From a virus: a stretch of 50,046 nucleotides of DNA. Each line of letters begins with the position of its first letter. Positions within the stretch are counted from its first letter, which is position 1. The notes beneath the pieces are model-generated. The model ran no database searches. It was not told the origin of the DNA and worked only from the letters and a program-made list of their open reading frames with translations. The position numbers and the translations under genes are program-made. Of the stretch, positions 2 through 50,046 are shown one piece after another. The stretch is taken from positions 1 through 50,046 of IMG/VR virus record IMGVR_UViG_3300045012_000081. One strand, written 5' to 3'.

Positions 2-1627
2 TCTGGTATCGAACTAAGCCTCATGATGGGCGAGGCGGGGATGAAGCGAAGTGACTGTTATCTTACGAATGTCGTCCGGAGTCGTCCTCCTGGCGGAGAA
101 ACCTCGGCGTGGATTGCCTCGAACAAGACTGAGGAAGCGGTCTTTCTCTCGCGCGGGGGCATCCGCTACAACGGCCACGTCATTGCACCAGAACTTTACG
201 CCGGGATCATGGACCTCCGTGAGCAGGTGGAAAAGCAGAGACCTAAACTCATCGTGGCCCTGGGAAACGTGGCGCTCTGGGCACTCACCGGGGAGTGGGG
301 CATTGGATCCTGGCGCGGTAGTGAACTTACAGCGACGCTTAGCAGCGATTGGCGCCCGCCCTGCATCCCAACCTACAACCCTGCGGCGATCCTTCGCCAG
401 TGGGCGCTACGACGTGTTGTCGTCCAGGACTTTAGGCGGGCACGAGGCGTATTGGCAAACGGACCAATCAACCCGCGCTATAACTTCCTTGTCGAACCCA
501 CCTTCGAGCAAGCCATCCATGTCCTCGACTTTCTTGCGGATAAACTGGAGTCTGCTGAACAGCCAGTCCCACTCAGCGTCGATATCGAAACCCGCAACTA
601 CCACCTGGCTTGCCTGGGCATTGCGTGGAGTAAAAAAGACGCTATCTGTTTTCCTTTCTTAGACTCTCGGAGGCCAGATGGCTATTGGAATGAGGCAGAG
701 GAAGCGGAGATTGTATTCCGGCTATACCAAATCCTCACACATCCTCGTGCTATCAATATCGGGCAGAACTTCCTTTACGACGCGCAGTATATTTGGCGCT
801 ACTGGCTCTTTATTCCGCGTGCAGTACGCGACACAATGCTCACTCAGCACCTTTGCTTCCCAGGACTACCAAAGAGCCTTGATTTTATTGCGTCGCTCTA
901 TTGCGAATCGTACCGATATTGGAAGGACGATGGGAAAGTTTGGTCCGACTCTATGGACGAGCGCATCCTGTGGAAATATAACTGCGAAGACTGTGTCCGT
1001 ACGTTCGAGTGTAAGGAAGCACTGGATTCGGTCGTGGATAGCCTTGGGCTGCGCGATCAATATGACTTCCAAATGCGGCTCTGGCCCGCAGTCTTGCGTA
1101 TGATGAACCGAGGTATGGCCATCGACAACGTCATGCGCGCGAAGCTCGAGCTCGAGATGCACACCCATGAACGAGGTTTGCTCGAGGACATTGAATACAT
1201 CGTCGGTCATCCACTCAACCCCGGCAGTCCGAAACAAATGAAAGAGTTTTTCTATGGCGAACTACAACTCCCACCGGTATACCAGCGCGGGAAACGAGCT
1301 AAACCTGGTAAAGTCCGACAGCCAAGCTGCGATGACGAATGCCTTAACCGCGCAGCTGCTCGCGAGCCTATCATACGCCCCCTTGTTAACCTTATTCTCG
1401 AGTATCGCTCTGTCCGCGTTTATGCTAGTACCTTTCTCGCAGACCATAGCGATTTCGACGGCCGCATACGTTGCAGCATCAACATCGCAGGCGCGGTTAC
1501 GTTCCGTTTCTCGTCAAGCGAAAACCCCTTTGGCTCTGGAATGAATCTCCAGAACCTGCCGGGCAAGGAGAACAAGACCCGCGCGGAGATGGATGCCGCG
1601 GACAAGGAGCTGCGCCATGCTACCTAA
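2..1627 (+). CDS. UDG-like domain fused to 3'-5' exonuclease and N-terminal half of family A DNA polymerase (split polymerase, piece 1; 5' part at window end)
   Basis: The frame is open from base 2 and continues the gene that starts at 49924, giving about 580 aa once the circle is closed. First comes a family-4-type uracil-DNA-glycosylase-like fold: GEAPG and CFVGASG at the window end, then TNVVRSRPPGG and PTYNPAAIL here. Next is a DEDD 3'-5' exonuclease with SVDIET (Exo I), NIGQNFLYD (Exo II) and YNCED (Exo III). Then the thumb and the first palm strand of a PolA-type polymerase, ending at RFSSSENPFGSGMNLQNLPG. The N-terminal CxxC expected for an Fe-S family-4 glycosylase is absent, so catalysis on uracil is uncertain. 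The frame stops at TAA 1625-1627 just before polymerase motif A. A UDG-like domain ahead of a polymerase is also known from phage SPO1-type enzymes. The role is genome replication and proofreading. Confidence 0.88.
   Translation, partial: SGIELSLMMGEAGMKRSDCYLTNVVRSRPPGGETSAWIASNKTEEAVFLSRGGIRYNGHVIAPELYAGIMDLREQVEKQRPKLIVALGNVALWALTGEWGIGSWRGSELTATLSSDWRPPCIPTYNPAAILRQWALRRVVVQDFRRARGVLANGPINPRYNFLVEPTFEQAIHVLDFLADKLESAEQPVPLSVDIETRNYHLACLGIAWSKKDAICFPFLDSRRPDGYWNEAEEAEIVFRLYQILTHPRAINIGQNFLYDAQYIWRYWLFIPRAVRDTMLTQHLCFPGLPKSLDFIASLYCESYRYWKDDGKVWSDSMDERILWKYNCEDCVRTFECKEALDSVVDSLGLRDQYDFQMRLWPAVLRMMNRGMAIDNVMRAKLELEMHTHERGLLEDIEYIVGHPLNPGSPKQMKEFFYGELQLPPVYQRGKRAKPGKVRQPSCDDECLNRAAAREPIIRPLVNLILEYRSVRVYASTFLADHSDFDGRIRCSINIAGAVTFRFSSSENPFGSGMNLQNLPGKENKTRAEMDAADKELRHAT
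1604..1627 (+). promoter_or_regulatory. Ribosome binding site and start/stop overlap that splits the polymerase
   Basis: AAGGAG at 1604-1609 lies 7 nt before ATG 1617-1619, while the upstream frame ends at TAA 1625-1627, so the frames overlap by 11 nt. The second frame is +1 relative to the first. The near-ideal Shine-Dalgarno supports independent translation of the second piece. A programmed +1 shift here would also join the two frames and cannot be excluded from sequence. Confidence 0.7.
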
Positions 1628-2345
1628 CATCCGCAAGATGTTCGTTCCTGACCCTGGCTTCACGATGTTCGACTTGGATCTCGAGTCCGCGGACCTTCGC
1701 ACTGTTGCATGGGAATCCGACTGCAAGTACTTGAAAGAGTGCTTCAAAGCCGGAAAGAAACCCTATATTGAAATGGGCAAAGAGTTTTATGACAACCCTA
1801 GCTTCTCGAAGAAGGACGAGCCGTTTTACACCCAGTTCAAAAGTCTCTGTCACGGAGGTAACTATCTCGGTAAGGCTGAAAATATTGCGGGACGGATCGG
1901 TCTCGCCGTTTCTGATTGTGTCCGCGTCCAGGGATGGTATTTCAAAAAGTGCCCAGAAGTCGTGGAATGGCATAACAGAACCATACGTCAAATGGACACT
2001 ACAGGAACTGTCCGCAATGCTTTCGGATATAGGAGAAAATTTTTTGACCGCATCGAGGGCACTGTCTATAACGAAGGAGTTGCTTGGATTGGACAATCGA
2101 CAACTTCAATCATCATCAACAAAGGACTCGTCGCGATAGACGAATGGGAGGAGGAAAACCATGGCGGCCTACAGCTGCTCATGCAAGTGCATGACTCTCT
2201 TGTTGGACAGTTTCCCACTGCGGAGACCGCCTTCTTTCTTGACCTCATCCGAGCGCTCTGTACTATCACAGTGCCCTATGAAGACCCAATGGTCATGCCC
2301 GTTGGAATTAAGACTTCTACGATATCTTGGGGAGATTGCAGCTAA
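1617..2345 (+). CDS. Family A DNA polymerase, C-terminal catalytic half (split polymerase, piece 2)
   Basis: The 242-aa product begins MLPNIRKMFVPDPG and carries all three catalytic polymerase motifs: motif A (FDLDLESADLR, about residues 18-28), motif B/O-helix (QFKSLCHGGNYLG) and motif C (QVHDSLV). It lacks thumb, exonuclease and NLQNLP segments, which lie in the preceding polypeptide, so both pieces should be needed for one active polymerase. The start was set at ATG 1617 because of AAGGAG 7 nt upstream; LPNIRKMF is also the usual continuation in unsplit phage PolA proteins. The stop overlaps the next start (TAATG). A sequencing or assembly error that created a frameshift is the main alternative. 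Confidence 0.88.
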   Translation: MLPNIRKMFVPDPGFTMFDLDLESADLRTVAWESDCKYLKECFKAGKKPYIEMGKEFYDNPSFSKKDEPFYTQFKSLCHGGNYLGKAENIAGRIGLAVSDCVRVQGWYFKKCPEVVEWHNRTIRQMDTTGTVRNAFGYRRKFFDRIEGTVYNEGVAWIGQSTTSIIINKGLVAIDEWEEENHGGLQLLMQVHDSLVGQFPTAETAFFLDLIRALCTITVPYEDPMVMPVGIKTSTISWGDCS

Positions 2346-2617
2346 TGGACACAACTAACATGCACTGGTTCGATACCTACTGCATTCACCATAACATCAC
2401 ACAGTATGGCGAACCACCCACGAGCAACCGTGGCTACTTCTATGTCGATATGGCTGGGCCGACTGAGGAAGATCTTATCTTCCCTGCGTTGGCCGAGTTC
2501 TATAAACAGCTCAATGGCTATCACAACGTATGGCTTCGAGTCCGTCCATCGGTACAAAAGGTAACGGAAGCTGATGACGTTTGCTACCGCTGCCGCTTTC
2601 GTGGAGTCTACTGGTAA
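2345..2617 (+). CDS. Hypothetical protein, 90 aa, between polymerase and primase/helicase
   Basis: The start at ATG 2345 overlaps the polymerase stop and the stop overlaps the next ATG, both as TAATG, so the gene is translationally coupled on both sides. The acidic to neutral product has aromatic-rich N-terminal residues (HWFDTYCIHH) and a Cys pair near the end (VCYRCRF). No family was recognised. Its place in the replication operon suggests an accessory replication role, which is inference only. Confidence 0.75.
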   Translation: MDTTNMHWFDTYCIHHNITQYGEPPTSNRGYFYVDMAGPTEEDLIFPALAEFYKQLNGYHNVWLRVRPSVQKVTEADDVCYRCRFRGVYW

Positions 2618-3810
2618 TGTCCCGCATCTTTCCCGACTGGATAGAAGCGTTCGAAGCGTACACTCGGTTTGGCGAAGCCCCGAACAAGATGTACCGCTGG
2701 TGCGCTGTGAGTGCCATCGCTGGCGCGATCCGTCGCAAGTGCTGGCTTGATCAAGTCTACTTTAAATGGTACTGCAATGAGTACATTATTCTTGTCGCTC
2801 CTCCCGGAATCGTCTCCAAGTCTACAACGGTTGAAATTGCAATGTCGCTACTGCGGCGCGTGGAAGGCGTACGCTTCGGTCCCGACGTTATCACTTGGCA
2901 GGCTCTCGTTAAATCCTTTGCGGGAGCAGGTGAGAAGTTTGCCTTGCCGGATGGCACCGAGCTCGAAATGTCCCCGCTCACAATCGCATCGAGCGAGTTT
3001 GGAAATCTCATGGCTCCCGGAGATCGAGAAATGGTTGATCTGCTTGTCTCCCTCTGGGACGGACGCGAGGGAGCTTTCCGCAAAGAGACCAAAGGTTCTG
3101 GTAACGACGAGGTCATCAACCCATGGATCAACATGATTGCTTGTACCACGCCCGCGTGGATCAGTGGAAACTTTCCCGAGTACATGATCGGCGGGGGTTT
3201 TATGTCGAGGTGTATCTTCGTATATGCAGAGGAGAAGAGGAACTATGTCGCGTACCCGGGCATGGCTGTAGCTGGCATCGATATAGCGAAAATGGAGGCG
3301 GACCTTACCCAGGACTTAACGCAGATAGCTGCCTTGTCCGGCGAATTTGGTATGACGCAGGAGGCCGTGGAGTGGGGGACGGACTGGTACAAGCGCCACT
3401 TCGCGACAAAGGGCAATGGACTATTGGACGATTCACGTTTCGGTGGGTACGTAGCGAGGAAACAGACCCACTTACACAAGCTTGCTATGATATTTTCTGC
3501 ATCGAGATCGGAGGACCTGGTTATTACGGTGACGGACCTCAAGCGCGCAGAGCAGGAGCTAACTGACCTCGAGGCCGATTTACCCAAGGTCTTTGATCGA
3601 GTAGGAAAGAGCCAAGACTCCGTGCAAGCCGACCGCTTGCTCGAGCTTGTAAAGAGCCGTGGCTCTATTCCTCTCATGGAAGCTTACGCGGCCCTCCACT
3701 CCGCCATCCCGCACTTCGACGAGTTTGAAACCCTCATGCGCAGCCTGACGCAAGCCGGGCTCCTTCGCGTTGAAGTGGCTGGAGGCAAGCTCATACTCCA
3801 CGCGCTATGA
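2617..3810 (+). CDS. DUF3987-like primase/helicase-type ATPase
   Basis: The product of about 397 aa starts MSRIFPDWIEAFEAYTRFGEAP at ATG 2617, overlapping the preceding stop. A Walker A-like loop, VAPPGIVSKSTT, sits near residue 65 and is followed by SSEFGNLM and a long helical region. The layout resembles DUF3987-type AAA ATPases that serve as replicative helicases or primase partners in phages. The C-terminal 60 residues look like a small winged-helix module (SIPLMEAYAALH). It is the last gene of the plus-strand block; its 3' end overlaps the 3' end of the endolysin gene on the other strand by 20 bp. Confidence 0.75.
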   Translation: MSRIFPDWIEAFEAYTRFGEAPNKMYRWCAVSAIAGAIRRKCWLDQVYFKWYCNEYIILVAPPGIVSKSTTVEIAMSLLRRVEGVRFGPDVITWQALVKSFAGAGEKFALPDGTELEMSPLTIASSEFGNLMAPGDREMVDLLVSLWDGREGAFRKETKGSGNDEVINPWINMIACTTPAWISGNFPEYMIGGGFMSRCIFVYAEEKRNYVAYPGMAVAGIDIAKMEADLTQDLTQIAALSGEFGMTQEAVEWGTDWYKRHFATKGNGLLDDSRFGGYVARKQTHLHKLAMIFSASRSEDLVITVTDLKRAEQELTDLEADLPKVFDRVGKSQDSVQADRLLELVKSRGSIPLMEAYAALHSAIPHFDEFETLMRSLTQAGLLRVEVAGGKLILHAL

Positions 3811-4270
3811 TGAAGAGCCGCTTTGTCCACCCATCTCCATCGTGCGGCCACCCTGCCAATCCTTGATAATGCTTCAGCCGAGCTAGGAGATACAACTCCG
3901 GCTCGGCGAAGGAGGCCGCCGCTGCCGCGGTAGTCGGTCCGACCTTTCCGTCCTGCGCTACCCCCAACACTCCCTGCAATATCATAGCAGCCGTACCAAC
4001 GCCGTGATTAATCGCGCCGTCGAGCAGCCACAAGTCCAAGCCACGAGGCATAAGCCCAGCCCCGCTAGGCTGCCAGTAATCATTGTAGTAAATCTGCGCG
4101 GCGCCAAGCTCCGTGAGTCCTGCGATATCAACGTTAGGGTAGGCCGCTTTGCTGATGCCATAGTTTGTTTCTCCGCCTGGGTCTTGGGGATCATTCGCGT
4201 AACCTCCTTCAATGCGTTCGATAATCAAGCCGATACACGCCATGAACCGCGCGGGTAGAATATTGCTCAT
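3791..4270 (-). CDS. Endolysin, GH108-type peptidoglycan hydrolase (N-acetylmuramidase)
   Basis: The 159-aa product has the GH108 signature IERIEGGYANDPQDPGGETNYGIS in pieces: catalytic Glu in IERIEGGY, then DPQDPGG and TNYGIS near residues 20-40. The C-terminal half carries a peptidoglycan-binding-like stretch (ILQGVLGVAQDGKVGP). There is no signal peptide, so export should depend on a holin. It is the last gene of the late block, just after a small membrane protein, as in a lysis cassette. Its stop overlaps the opposing primase/helicase gene. Confidence 0.9.
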   Translation of the reverse strand: MSNILPARFMACIGLIIERIEGGYANDPQDPGGETNYGISKAAYPNVDIAGLTELGAAQIYYNDYWQPSGAGLMPRGLDLWLLDGAINHGVGTAAMILQGVLGVAQDGKVGPTTAAAAASFAEPELYLLARLKHYQGLAGWPHDGDGWTKRLFIIARGV

Positions 4271-4271
4271 G

Positions 4272-4454
4272 TCAATGCCCTCTCAAGTCCTTGATCAATT
4301 CCCACACGCCAGTGGCCACACTCATCAGACCAAAGGCCCATACTGCGAATTTCCTCCACAATTTAAGCTCCCGTACTAGCGCGGTTGACTCGGTTGTGTT
4401 AGCGTCAATATTTCTCACCCGAGTCAGCAATTCTTGTTCTTCTATAGGCTTCAC
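4272..4454 (-). CDS. Small single-TM protein, putative holin-like or XhlA-like lysis protein
   Basis: The 60-aa product starts at GTG 4454 with GGAGG just upstream. Residues 1-30 are polar and helical (LLTRVRNIDANTTESTALVREL) and one membrane helix follows (FAVWAFGLMSVATGVWELI). This layout resembles XhlA-type small lysis proteins. It lies directly upstream of the endolysin, which supports a lysis role. Function is inferred from topology and position. Confidence 0.65.
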   Translation of the reverse strand: MKPIEEQELLTRVRNIDANTTESTALVRELKLWRKFAVWAFGLMSVATGVWELIKDLRGH

Positions 4455-38320: not shown

Positions 38321-38392
38321 GGGTCGCTTAGCTCAGTCGGTAGAGCGTGGCCTGATCAGCTTGCGCGCTGGTTCGAATCCAGCAGCGACCCG
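38321..38392 (+). tRNA. tRNA-Ile(GAU)-like gene with imperfect anticodon arm
   Basis: The acceptor stem GGGTCGCT/AGCGACCC has 8 bp. The D arm GCTC-AGTCGGTA-GAGC and T arm GCTGG-TTCGAAT-CCAGC are canonical. The anticodon arm is GTGGC-CTGATCA-GCTTG: only the three loop-proximal pairs form unless one T is bulged, and base 37 is C rather than a purine. The variable region is short. CCA is not encoded (CCT). The loop gives anticodon GAT. The gene may be degenerate or specially shaped. Confidence 0.65.
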
Positions 38393-39363: not shown

Positions 39364-39683
39364 GCCTATGCATCAAGACCGGCGCGGATCTGTGGATCGT
39401 CTCGCGCAATGCCGTTGTCCACTGCGATGCGTACTACGTCGCGCATGAAGGTGGCGCAGGCAACGAGCCAGGCTGTTACGTCTTTCGCCATGCGCAAGGA
39501 GCTTGGTTTTACCCCTCCGGCAAGGCGCGCGAACAATCCAAGGCCCATTGCCACTTTTGGCTCCTCGACGCAGCCATCGACGCACAGCATCGCATCCTCG
39601 AGCTCGAAACCGCTTACGTCATTGTAGCTCCCGAAGGTGACGTACTCGATAACCTCAACTGGGAAACCGGAGATCACGTATGA
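39360..39683 (+). CDS. Early protein, 107 aa
   Basis: ATG 39360 overlaps the upstream stop. Product MSLCIKTGADLWIVSRNAVV with a beta-rich middle (GCYVFRHAQGAWFYPSGKAR) and a helical end. It is coupled to rtcB by overlap. No family was recognised. Confidence 0.62.
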   Translation: MSLCIKTGADLWIVSRNAVVHCDAYYVAHEGGAGNEPGCYVFRHAQGAWFYPSGKAREQSKAHCHFWLLDAAIDAQHRILELETAYVIVAPEGDVLDNLNWETGDHV

Positions 39684-40867
39684 AAGTCATCCAAGAGGCT
39701 GGTCATCGCCCGATCAAAATCTGGACCGACAACGTCGAAGCTAGCGCCATGTCTCAGCTTCTCAACATGGCGCGCATGCCTTTTATCGCCTCCAATGGCG
39801 TAGCTTGCATGCCAGACGTCCACGCAGGCATTGGCGCGACGGTCGGAACCGTCATTGCTACTCATCAAGCTCTCATCCCTGCCGCAGTCGGGGTTGATAT
39901 TGGCTGCGGTATGAATGCTGTACGCTTGTCTCTAAAGGCCAGCGATTTGCCAGATAGCTTGCTTGCGATCCGCCATCAGATTGAGCGGGACGTTCCTCTT
40001 GGCAAGGGTGGCGCGCATCAGCCTAACCGGTTGCCGAGCATCGCCAGCTCCGAGCACGCAATGTGGACTGAACTCGAGCGGATTACTGTGATGCATCCTC
40101 TTCTCGCGAAAAACCATGCGCGGCGGCAGCTTGGCACCCTTGGCTCTGGCAATCACTTCATCGAGCTTTGCGTAGACGAAAACCAAGACGTTTGGATTAT
40201 GCTTCACTCCGGCTCGCGCGGCGTCGGCAACATGATCGGTCGCTACTTTATCGAGCGCGCAAAACGCGAGATGGAGCGGTACTTCATTACGCTCCCCGAC
40301 CAGGACCTCGCCTATTTCCCCGAAAACACGAGCGACTTCAACGACTACGTCGAGGCTATGAACTGGGCGCAAGACTACGCGCTCGAGAACCGGCGCCAGA
40401 TGATGAACGCGATACTTCATGCTTTGCTCGGAAAGGTACCGTCTTTCTCGGTCACGCACGAGGCCATTAACTGCCACCATAACTACACCACGCGGGAGAA
40501 TCATTTTGGCAAAAACCTGTGGATTACGCGCAAAGGAGCAATCCGCGCACGATCTGGTGATATGGGAATCATCCCAGGCAGCATGGGCACGCGTAGTTAC
40601 ATTGTACGAGGCCTTGGGAATACTGAGTCATACTGCAGCTGTAGCCACGGCGCAGGCCGTTGTATGTCCCGTACCGCCGCGCGGCGCCAGTTCACCATCG
40701 CGGACCTCGTTGCCCAGACCGCCGGAGTCGAGTGCCGCAAAGACGAGGCTGTGCTCGACGAGTTACCGTCTGGGTACAAAGACATCGACCAAGTAATGGC
40801 GAATCAAACCGACTTGGTCGAAGTCGTCCATACCCTCAAGCAAGTTCTTTGCGTCAAAGGAGCGTAG
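39680..40867 (+). CDS. rtcB: RNA-splicing ligase RtcB
   Basis: The 395-aa product matches RtcB throughout: ACMPDVHAGIGATVGTVIAT (metal-binding Asp and His), AAVGVDIGCGMNAVR (Cys metal ligand), LGSGNHFIELCVDE (active loop), HSGSRGVGN, HEAINCHHNY, GSMGTRSYIVRG and YCSCSHGAGRCMSRTAA (guanylylated His region). RtcB seals RNA 3'-phosphate or 2',3'-cyclic phosphate ends to 5'-OH ends with GTP and Mn2+. In a phage it could mend tRNAs cut by anticodon nucleases. Slightly shorter than many bacterial forms but with all key motifs. Confidence 0.93.
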   Translation: MKVIQEAGHRPIKIWTDNVEASAMSQLLNMARMPFIASNGVACMPDVHAGIGATVGTVIATHQALIPAAVGVDIGCGMNAVRLSLKASDLPDSLLAIRHQIERDVPLGKGGAHQPNRLPSIASSEHAMWTELERITVMHPLLAKNHARRQLGTLGSGNHFIELCVDENQDVWIMLHSGSRGVGNMIGRYFIERAKREMERYFITLPDQDLAYFPENTSDFNDYVEAMNWAQDYALENRRQMMNAILHALLGKVPSFSVTHEAINCHHNYTTRENHFGKNLWITRKGAIRARSGDMGIIPGSMGTRSYIVRGLGNTESYCSCSHGAGRCMSRTAARRQFTIADLVAQTAGVECRKDEAVLDELPSGYKDIDQVMANQTDLVEVVHTLKQVLCVKGA

Positions 40868-47244: not shown

Positions 47245-47878
47245 ACGAGACCTAGAGAACATTTGCATCGCCCTTATGACCTCGCGCGACCCACAAGGGC
47301 GCCTTACTGCTTGGGGCTCACACCTCAGCTCCGCCATCTTCGGTGAGTTCATCAAAGAAGGCCGCGTAACTTTCGTTATCGAAGGAGCCAATCATGCCAC
47401 TCAAATCGGGCAAGAGCAAGAAAACAGTATCGAGCAATATCTCCGAACTCGCCCACGGCCCGCACCATGCGAAGATGGCAAAGAAGTTCGGCGCGAAGAA
47501 GGCGCAAAAGATCGACGTAGCGATAGCCTTGGACAAAGCGCGCAAGTCGGGGGGAAAGAGAGGCCGATAATCTATATCGCTGGTCCGATGACCGGCCTGC
47601 CCGACCACAACTTCCTCGCGTTCCACGAGGCGGCAGCCCACTACCGCGCACGTGGCCACGCAGTCCTCAACCCAGCCGAAATCAACACCGTCTCCGACGG
47701 CCGCCCTCTACTCGAGATCATCCAGCGCGATCTCTCTGCCCTCCTCCTCTGCAACACCATCTACATGCTGCGAGGGTGGGAGAACTCAACTGGCGCGCGA
47801 ACCGAGCACGCCGTTGCCAAGTGGGCTCAAATGACCATCATCTACGAGGGCGGTAATGTCAACCATCCACAGCTATGA
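47231..47878 (+). CDS. DUF4406 (nucleoside 2-deoxyribosyltransferase-like) protein with N-terminal extension
   Basis: GAGG lies 6 nt before GTG 47231, inside the end of the previous gene. Residues 1-55 form a separate helical module (ITERDLENICIALMTSRDPQ). Residues 114-212 are the DUF4406 domain: IYIAGPMTGLPDHNFLAFHE, HAVLNPAEI, then LSALLLCNTIYMLRGWENST and GARTEHAVAKW. This fold recognises nucleosides or nucleotides. The linker between the two parts overlaps a second gene in another frame. The two parts may be separate proteins; no ordinary start is seen just before the domain. Confidence 0.68.
   Translation: MLITERDLENICIALMTSRDPQGRLTAWGSHLSSAIFGEFIKEGRVTFVIEGANHATQIGQEQENSIEQYLRTRPRPAPCEDGKEVRREEGAKDRRSDSLGQSAQVGGKERPIIYIAGPMTGLPDHNFLAFHEAAAHYRARGHAVLNPAEINTVSDGRPLLEIIQRDLSALLLCNTIYMLRGWENSTGARTEHAVAKWAQMTIIYEGGNVNHPQL
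47394..47570 (+). CDS. Nested small basic protein, 58 aa, DUF-type 'MPLKSGKS'
   Basis: AAGGAG lies 6 nt before ATG 47394, wholly inside the 47231-47878 frame but shifted by one base. The product MPLKSGKSKKTVSSNISELA ends KKAQKIDVAIALDKARKSGG. Many phages and prophages carry similar Lys-rich peptides (MPL..GKS....S.NI...........AIALxxARKS). The conserved pattern and the strong RBS support a true gene in a nested overlap. Confidence 0.7.
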   Translation: MPLKSGKSKKTVSSNISELAHGPHHAKMAKKFGAKKAQKIDVAIALDKARKSGGKRGR

Positions 47879-49142
47879 AACCAGCCACATACGCATCTCC
47901 GAGCACCGTCAGCGTCGTCACTTCGACGGGGCCGCGATCATCGAACTCGCCAATTCGATCCAGACCTTGGGTCTCCTCCAACCCATCACTGTCGCCGCGG
48001 GTGGAGAGCTGGTGGCTGGTGAGCGCCGTCTTCGTGCTTGCAAGCACCTGGCCGTGTTGGGAATCCCTGTGCGCTGCGGTAATGAGACTTATCCACTAAA
48101 CCAGGTCCCCGTGATCTTCTTCGACTTCGACGACGAGACGCGGCTATGGGAGGCCCAACTTCATGAGAATATTCGACGAGAAAACCTTACGTGGCCGGAG
48201 CGCGCGGCTGCTGAGGCCTTCCTTCACGAGCTACGTTGCCGCCAAAACCCCAAGCAAACGTTCGCGCAGACGGCTGCAGAGACGCCCAATACCAATGGTA
48301 CTGCTCTACGTGACGCCGTCATTGTTGCCGCGCATCTTGAAGACAAAGAGGTTTCAAGCGCGCCTACGCTGAAAGACGCAATGAAGGTCCTAAGGAAACG
48401 CGATGAAAAAGCACGGCTCAGCCGTCTCTCTGCTTCTGTCAATGTGGCAGCTCTGTCTAGCCTTCACAGCTTACAGCATTGCGACTTCCGCGCTGCTACC
48501 GTTGAAGATGGCTCGATCGATACGATTCTCACCGATCCTCCATATGGCATGGGCGCCCAGGCTTTTAAAGACGGCGGAGACCCTTCTACGGTTCTCCACG
48601 ACTATGATGACATGGATGGAGAAGAATGGCAAACAATGATACAGGAGTTTGCCGCGTGGAGCTGGGCCAAAACCAAACCAAAGGCGCATATCTATGTGTT
48701 CTGTGACATTGATAAATTCCCTTTGCTTCGGAGCCTCTTTAGTAATACTGGCTATCGGGTGCATCGCACCCCGCTTGTCTATGCGAAGAGCCATGCAAGT
48801 AGCCGGCGCGTACCTTGGCCTACTATGGGTCCTCGTCGTGGTTACGAGCTGGTCTTGTACGCGGTGAAGGGAGATCGCAATGTTAACGTCGTTGTGTCGG
48901 ACGTATTTTCTGCTGGAGAGAACGACGAGAATCTCGGACATGCAGCACAAAAGCCTGTTGGAGCTTACGTCGATCTTCTGCGTCGGTCTGTCGCCGCCGG
49001 AGATTGCGTGTGCGATCCGTTCGCAGGTACGGGGACGATACTCCCCGCGGCTCACTTACTTAAATGCCGTGCCATTGCGATTGAGCGTGATGCTTCTTTC
49101 CACGGGATCGCTTTGGAAAGGCTCGCAAAACTCAAGGAGTAG
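47856..49142 (+). CDS. ParB-like nuclease domain fused to DNA methyltransferase
   Basis: The 428-aa product has an N-terminal ParB/Srx-type domain (IELANSIQTLGLLQPITVAA, GELVAGERRLRACKHL, HENIRRENLTWPERAAAEA) to about residue 130. The C-terminal half is an N4/N6 methyltransferase: LTDPPYGMGAQA (motif IV, DPPY) near residue 220 and CVCDPFAGTGTILPAAHL (SAM motif I) near residue 390. It may methylate phage DNA to evade restriction, with the ParB part giving specificity or nuclease-like folding. No restriction enzyme was seen. Confidence 0.87.
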   Translation: MSTIHSYETSHIRISEHRQRRHFDGAAIIELANSIQTLGLLQPITVAAGGELVAGERRLRACKHLAVLGIPVRCGNETYPLNQVPVIFFDFDDETRLWEAQLHENIRRENLTWPERAAAEAFLHELRCRQNPKQTFAQTAAETPNTNGTALRDAVIVAAHLEDKEVSSAPTLKDAMKVLRKRDEKARLSRLSASVNVAALSSLHSLQHCDFRAATVEDGSIDTILTDPPYGMGAQAFKDGGDPSTVLHDYDDMDGEEWQTMIQEFAAWSWAKTKPKAHIYVFCDIDKFPLLRSLFSNTGYRVHRTPLVYAKSHASSRRVPWPTMGPRRGYELVLYAVKGDRNVNVVVSDVFSAGENDENLGHAAQKPVGAYVDLLRRSVAAGDCVCDPFAGTGTILPAAHLLKCRAIAIERDASFHGIALERLAKLKE

Positions 49143-49923: not shown

Positions 49924-50046
49924 ATGCTCGTCACCGGTCTGCAGGTCAAACCTTACGGCCCACCGAATGCCGAGGTTATGCTAGTCGGTGAAGCCCCCGG
50001 CGCGGAGGAGGTCAAGCAAGGCCTCTGCTTCGTCGGGGCCTCTGGT
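49924..50046 (+). CDS. 5' end of the UDG-exonuclease-polymerase gene (continues at base 8)
   Basis: ATG 49924 opens MLVTGLQVKPYGPPNAEVML followed by VGEAPGAEEV and CFVGASG. These are the first motifs of a family-4-like uracil-DNA glycosylase. The frame leaves the window in phase with base 8 at the other end once the 7-base overlap is removed. The remaining domains are described in the entry at 2-1627. Confidence 0.87.
   Translation, partial: MLVTGLQVKPYGPPNAEVMLVGEAPGAEEVKQGLCFVGASG

Follow-up and report, generated by a model that had tools for sequence, protein, structure and literature searches.

A phage family A DNA polymerase encoded by two overlapping genes that divide its palm domain

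In the IMG/VR virus record analyzed here (50,046 bases; the window in the following is the whole record), the parts of a family A DNA polymerase are distributed over two reading frames, which raises the question of whether a single gene has been broken or whether the phage makes its polymerase from two polypeptides. Both ends of the record carry the sequence CTCTGGT (a 7-base overlap) and the frames are in register across the join, the last 123 bases being an open frame that starts at ATG 49924 and is in register with base 2 (frame 2). Because of the shared ends and the frame continuing from 49924 into base 2, the record is very probably circular, with the polymerase gene crossing the join.

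The first gene (half 1) lies, like all features of this locus, on the + strand. Its 5' end, comprising the start codon and the first 41 codons with the UDG-like motif GEAPG, is located at 49924..50046, and the remainder at 2..1627 encodes a UDG-like domain (14..415; Pfam PF03167, residues 5-138), a 3'-5' exonuclease domain (527..1033; PF01612, residues 176-344), the thumb, and the palm up to the primer-binding motif NLQNLP (1544..1561, aligned with Klenow N675-P680). This motif is the last conserved element of half 1, and it is followed by a C-terminal tail of 21 residues (1562..1624) and a TAA stop codon at 1625-1627. The exonuclease motifs D-x-E, D and Y-x3-D are all retained. In the H-P motif of the UDG-like domain the His is replaced by Asn (N126, window 374-400), a position that is variable among relatives; since the catalytic-type His is missing, this domain may be inactive or structural. 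The original prediction was correct in its start and stop codons, the AAGGAG site and the 11-nt overlap, and needs amending at the 5' end: half 1 starts at ATG 49924 and not within the first bases of the window, and it carries the N-terminal UDG-like domain in addition. Upstream of the polymerase, at 47856-49142, a ParB-like N-terminal part and a DNA methyltransferase are combined in one ORF, and a comparable fusion is found upstream of the fused polymerase of L327.

The second gene (half 2, 1617..2345) was assigned to palm and fingers by its ORF, its PF00476 match and structure prediction. It contains motif A (DLESADLR, 1677..1700; D21 and D26 are equivalent to Klenow D705 and E710), motif B (KSLCHGGNY, 1839..1865; K75, H79 and Y83 are equivalent to K758, F762 and Y766, with His in place of Phe) and motif C (QVHDS, 2184..2198, residues 190-194, with the H881 and D882 equivalents). 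Residue 79 is His in nearly all members of the polymerase family, whether split or fused; F762 in Klenow is the sugar-selection position. PF00476 was detected above the cut-off in both genes, in half 1 at residues 382-527 (profile 7-139) and in half 2 covering profile 140-357, such that the halves tile the profile end to end; this coverage together with motifs A, B and C identifies a family A polymerase. The break corresponds to Klenow residues ~681-686. Start codon of half 2 and stop codon of half 1 overlap by 11 nt (1617..1627), and a Shine-Dalgarno sequence for half 2, AAGGAG (1604..1609), lies within half 1 codons with a 7-nt spacer to ATG 1617. Both genes are therefore complete ORFs with initiation signals of their own, as in a split phage polymerase. 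The end of half 2 forms a TAATG overlap with a small ORF without assigned function (2345..2617), which is followed by a primase-like DUF3987-type protein (2617..3810) that has the same neighboring position in fused relatives.

Relatives with the same break had been proposed as a check, and they were found. Among the IMG/VR matches listed with both halves in view, ~105 distinct relatives were present, of which 20 are broken at the same point and 85 are fused; as these are a score-ranked sample of matches, 20:85 is not a population frequency. Adding the window and one Vibrio phage in culture gives 22 distinct split forms. Since about four fifths of the sampled relatives are fused, splitting is not needed for function. 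A control set was drawn from matches to just the C half that had sufficient DNA upstream, and it contained 40 fused forms and 12 with the split at the junction. The sole break elsewhere is near the N-terminus of L042, and L035 was flagged only since its match overruns the junction stop. In L042, the N-terminal ~45 residues of half 1 (1847-1981) are read in a different frame from the rest. As the near-identical L043 has no break at this site, either a genuine variant or a mistake in assembly may be the cause. A scan of viral contigs with a single protein returned nothing and alignment queries were needed, a scan with a split-clade profile showed no further split lineage among the best 80 matches listed, and bacterial genomes, when scanned, yielded a single fused relative, on a Saccharibacteria MAG contig, and no host. 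Two further arrangements were observed in related polymerases: in L005 (Caulobacter phage Kuura, 1565-4969), a member of the same family, the junction is unbroken and the exonuclease domain is split with two small ORFs between the parts, and in L166 (MW202554, ctLwi270, 1727-4364) the polymerase is annotated as two ORFs with a gap of ~150 nt.

An artefact of sequencing or assembly in an ordinary single-chain gene, or its recent inactivation by a frameshift, would account for the two frames being offset by one, and fused relatives are indeed known (L002, L003 and the ~85 IMG/VR forms among the matches listed). However, the nearest relatives L006 and L007, two separate contigs of ~50.8 kb each with 79% identity to the window in half 2, have the same half 2 start codon and frame offset despite more than 20% residue difference from the window, and their half 1 stop is a different one (35 nt overlap instead of 11). 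Moreover, in the sister phages L086 and L087 the halves are separated by ~200-250 nt with a further ORF, and both halves are under purifying selection (see below); an error or recent frameshift is thus highly improbable. An unbroken gene in relatives had been named beforehand as an observation that would speak against the split. Such genes exist, but only in relatives of ~50% identity; the near relatives are all split.

Comparison of split and fused forms showed what the junction consists of. Fused relatives have a linker of 6-25 residues, often rich in Gly and Asp (PKGGETED, PSGDSD etc.), between NLQNIP and LPNIR, at the same site as the C-terminal tail of half 1 in the window. In the split forms, half 1 proteins terminate inside this linker region, typically with NLQNIPKGDD-stop, and half 2 starts at or at most ~21 residues from the conserved LPNIR, often in a TAATG or TGATG overlap with half 1. 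The K-G-D/E codons (AAG GGA GAn) at the end of half 1 are at the same time the ribosome site for the start of half 2. Of the 22 split forms, 18 have a Shine-Dalgarno-like site ahead of the half 2 start, whereas 16 of the 366 internal in-frame ATGs used as controls have one (p 3e-18, Fisher test). These signals also bear on the possibility that programmed ribosomal frameshifting in the overlap yields a single fused protein. The frames do overlap in the window, L006 and L007, but sequence and length of the overlap are not conserved (11 versus 35 nt), half 2 has its own ribosome site, and frameshifting could not join the halves in about half of the split relatives, where 175-1015 nt and separate genes lie between them. 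We consider such a mechanism very improbable.

In these 12 relatives the separating stretch nearly always holds at least one ORF: genes for XRE-type regulators in L087, L035 and L078 (in L089 seen by eye only), for MazG-like pyrophosphatases in L043 and L115, for HNH endonucleases in L094 and L035, and ORFs without assigned function in L024, L155 and L004. A homing endonuclease was considered as the general cause of the split and rejected, as HNH genes are present between the halves in L094 and L035 only; it may explain some cases, not all.

A further possibility is that the halves are joined at the RNA level by a self-splicing intron or after translation by a split intein. Group I introns are known in phage DNA polymerase genes: the family A DNA polymerase gamma of the Microcystis phage Mic1 is encoded by ORF86/ORF85 (PMC7156551), and our Rfam search found a group I intron (RF00028) inside its motif A. 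Mic1 thus resembles the window in having a family A polymerase broken near motif A and differs in that the break is due to a group I intron and the protein is probably one chain. An intron was also proposed for MEP401-type phages (Zobellviridae), in which the family A polymerase is encoded by gp13 and gp15 with gp14 between them (PMC10580990). In the window there is no room for an intron, and neither a group I intron nor another known RNA was detected at its junction or in the 12 relatives with spacers (Rfam, E<=0.1), whereas the same test detects the Mic1 intron; the threshold was chosen because the Rfam gathering score would miss this control (45.5 versus 50 bits). An interruption of the Mic1 or SPO1/Bastille type was thus not found in the window. 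Likewise, Rfam gave no intron at the MEP401 junction itself. In two fused relatives, L114 and L158, we observed intein-like inserts of ~300 residues within motif B (..AHG/CLTAGHEVLTPDGW.. to ..VTGN/..), which lends the intein variant some plausibility, but no intein halves were found at the two termini of the split forms: half 2 starts near LPNIR, half 1 tails are short, and neither end carries an intein-sized extension. Splicing of either kind is therefore most unlikely.

Polymerase-fold proteins have previously been co-opted in phages. In keeping with this, half 1 alone could be functional as a stand-alone exonuclease and UDG-like protein, with half 2 decaying or repurposed and the host polymerase replicating the phage. 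Yet all 22 split forms keep the equivalents of Klenow D705, K758, Y766, Q849, H881, D882, R668 and N675 as well as the exonuclease residues D, E, D, Y and D, so that the catalytic positions of the exonuclease and of polymerase motifs A to C are invariant. Comparison of L006 with L007 gave similar dN/dS values for both genes (half 1, ~0.07; half 2, ~0.08), indicating purifying selection on both. The halves also co-diverge: across split pairs, the identities of half 1 and half 2 correlate with r 0.86, hence they travel together, and independent exchange of halves between phages was not seen in these pairs. A function for one half only is accordingly very unlikely. The conserved split, the selection on both parts, the invariant catalytic residues and the conserved ribosome sites support the expectation that both halves are deliberately expressed.

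Structure predictions were made for single chains. Half 2 alone gave a model with a mean pLDDT of 93.6, which among solved folds most closely resembles Pol I/Klenow (TMq ~0.86-0.88). In the model of the fused relative L103, pLDDT is lowest (62) in the linker block (residues 541-550), as expected for a flexible loop. Because the break falls in a flexible surface loop, which is a mere linker in unbroken relatives, the halves should be able to associate through the palm core. Half 1 would contribute the UDG-like domain, the exonuclease, the thumb and that portion of the palm which grips the primer (R668, N675 and Q677 equivalents), and half 2 the fingers and both catalytic aspartates. Since half 1, with residue roles as in Klenow, has the primer minor-groove residues and half 2 the two metal-binding aspartates, the active site would be a composite one. 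Ribosomes that end half 1, or that load at the internal AAGGAG, could begin half 2 at ATG 1617, and such coupled starts would provide matched amounts of both proteins, which would then associate non-covalently via the intact palm core.

No other family A, B or C DNA polymerase was found in the 50,046-base record. Taken together with the evidence against an intron and for the maintenance of both genes, this supports the implication of the original prediction, and we consider it highly likely that the sole recognizable DNA polymerase of this phage is a genuine two-subunit family A enzyme, whose palm would be built from two translationally coupled, non-covalently assembled polypeptides with replicative activity.

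Two-chain phage replication enzymes are already known, as is a split family A polymerase in MEP401. The gene 43 of Aeromonas phages 25 and 44RR, encoding a family B polymerase, is split into 43A and 43B, the phage 25 halves co-purify and are polymerase-active, and phage Aeh1 has a split nrdA (PMC2988022). As in the window, a replicative enzyme is made as two polypeptides, and HNH-type genes lie between the halves in our L094 and L035 as well; the Aeromonas polymerases differ in belonging to family B and in having a homing endonuclease or an untranslated spacer at the site, whereas the window genes overlap without an insert. PolB of Methanothermobacter thermautotrophicus also consists of two polypeptides (PMC7776575) and is a natural two-chain replicative polymerase, although an archaeal one of family B.

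The position of the break had been described as unlike known split points. This applies less strictly than stated, as the same break is present in the cultured Vibrio phage vB_VspS_VS-ABTNL-3 (MF497422). Its PVS_29 and PVS_27 belong to the same polymerase family, are broken after NLQNLPKGD and are annotated separately, without a remark on the split; they differ from the window in a 184-residue gene between the halves and in sequence (~30-33% identity). The break of the MEP401 lineage (PMC10580990) is in the same palm segment: here, too, a family A polymerase in two ORFs is broken between NLQN and motif A, but ~13 residues further downstream; the IKxLF..RY segment precedes this break, and the second half opens with the motif A strand and not with LPNIR. 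All 77 MEP401-type loci with both halves (L167-L246) are split; their spacers range from -17 to 635 nt, and the inserted ORF varies or is absent. This is a separate lineage without the UDG domain, and the window shares with it neither lineage nor break residue. A two-subunit palm was not discussed by the MEP401 authors (PMC10580990), and a literature search, mostly of journals accessible without subscription, brought up no publication describing a two-subunit family A palm. New here is a family A polymerase that carries a UDG-like domain and is split in the palm, with the split recurring at one linker and with overlapping genes in the branch of the window.

A tree of 100 polymerases, calculated with the linker left out, places the window in a clade of 15 rows that are all split (support 96). 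Six other split rows stand apart from it, surrounded by fused forms; the Vibrio phage, which is distant, is located at the root. The tree requires 5-6 changes between the split and the fused state, and constraining split rows to one clade was rejected (p-AU 5e-54); as these changes are undirected, re-fusion and repeated fission look alike. A more far-reaching idea, which we put forward tentatively and regard as rather doubtful, is that phage family A polymerases have a general fission site in the palm loop between NLQN and motif A, at which several lineages arrived independently, that the split junction then takes up and exchanges genes of regulatory or accessory function (XRE, MazG-like, HNH), and that the two-subunit state is kept by selection, perhaps for assembly control, and is not a neutral accident.

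If the two-subunit reading is true, a genome can be replicated by the best-studied polymerase fold even when the domain holding its active site is severed. The natural fused and split homologues would be matched pairs for testing how a split enzyme works, and the junction would offer a natural split point for engineered two-part polymerases. Such phages are probably misannotated by pipelines that would call their polymerases truncated, interrupted by an intron or pseudogenes. Elsewhere in the window, a tRNA gene (38322-38391) is located close to a gene for an RtcB-type tRNA-splicing ligase (39680-40867).
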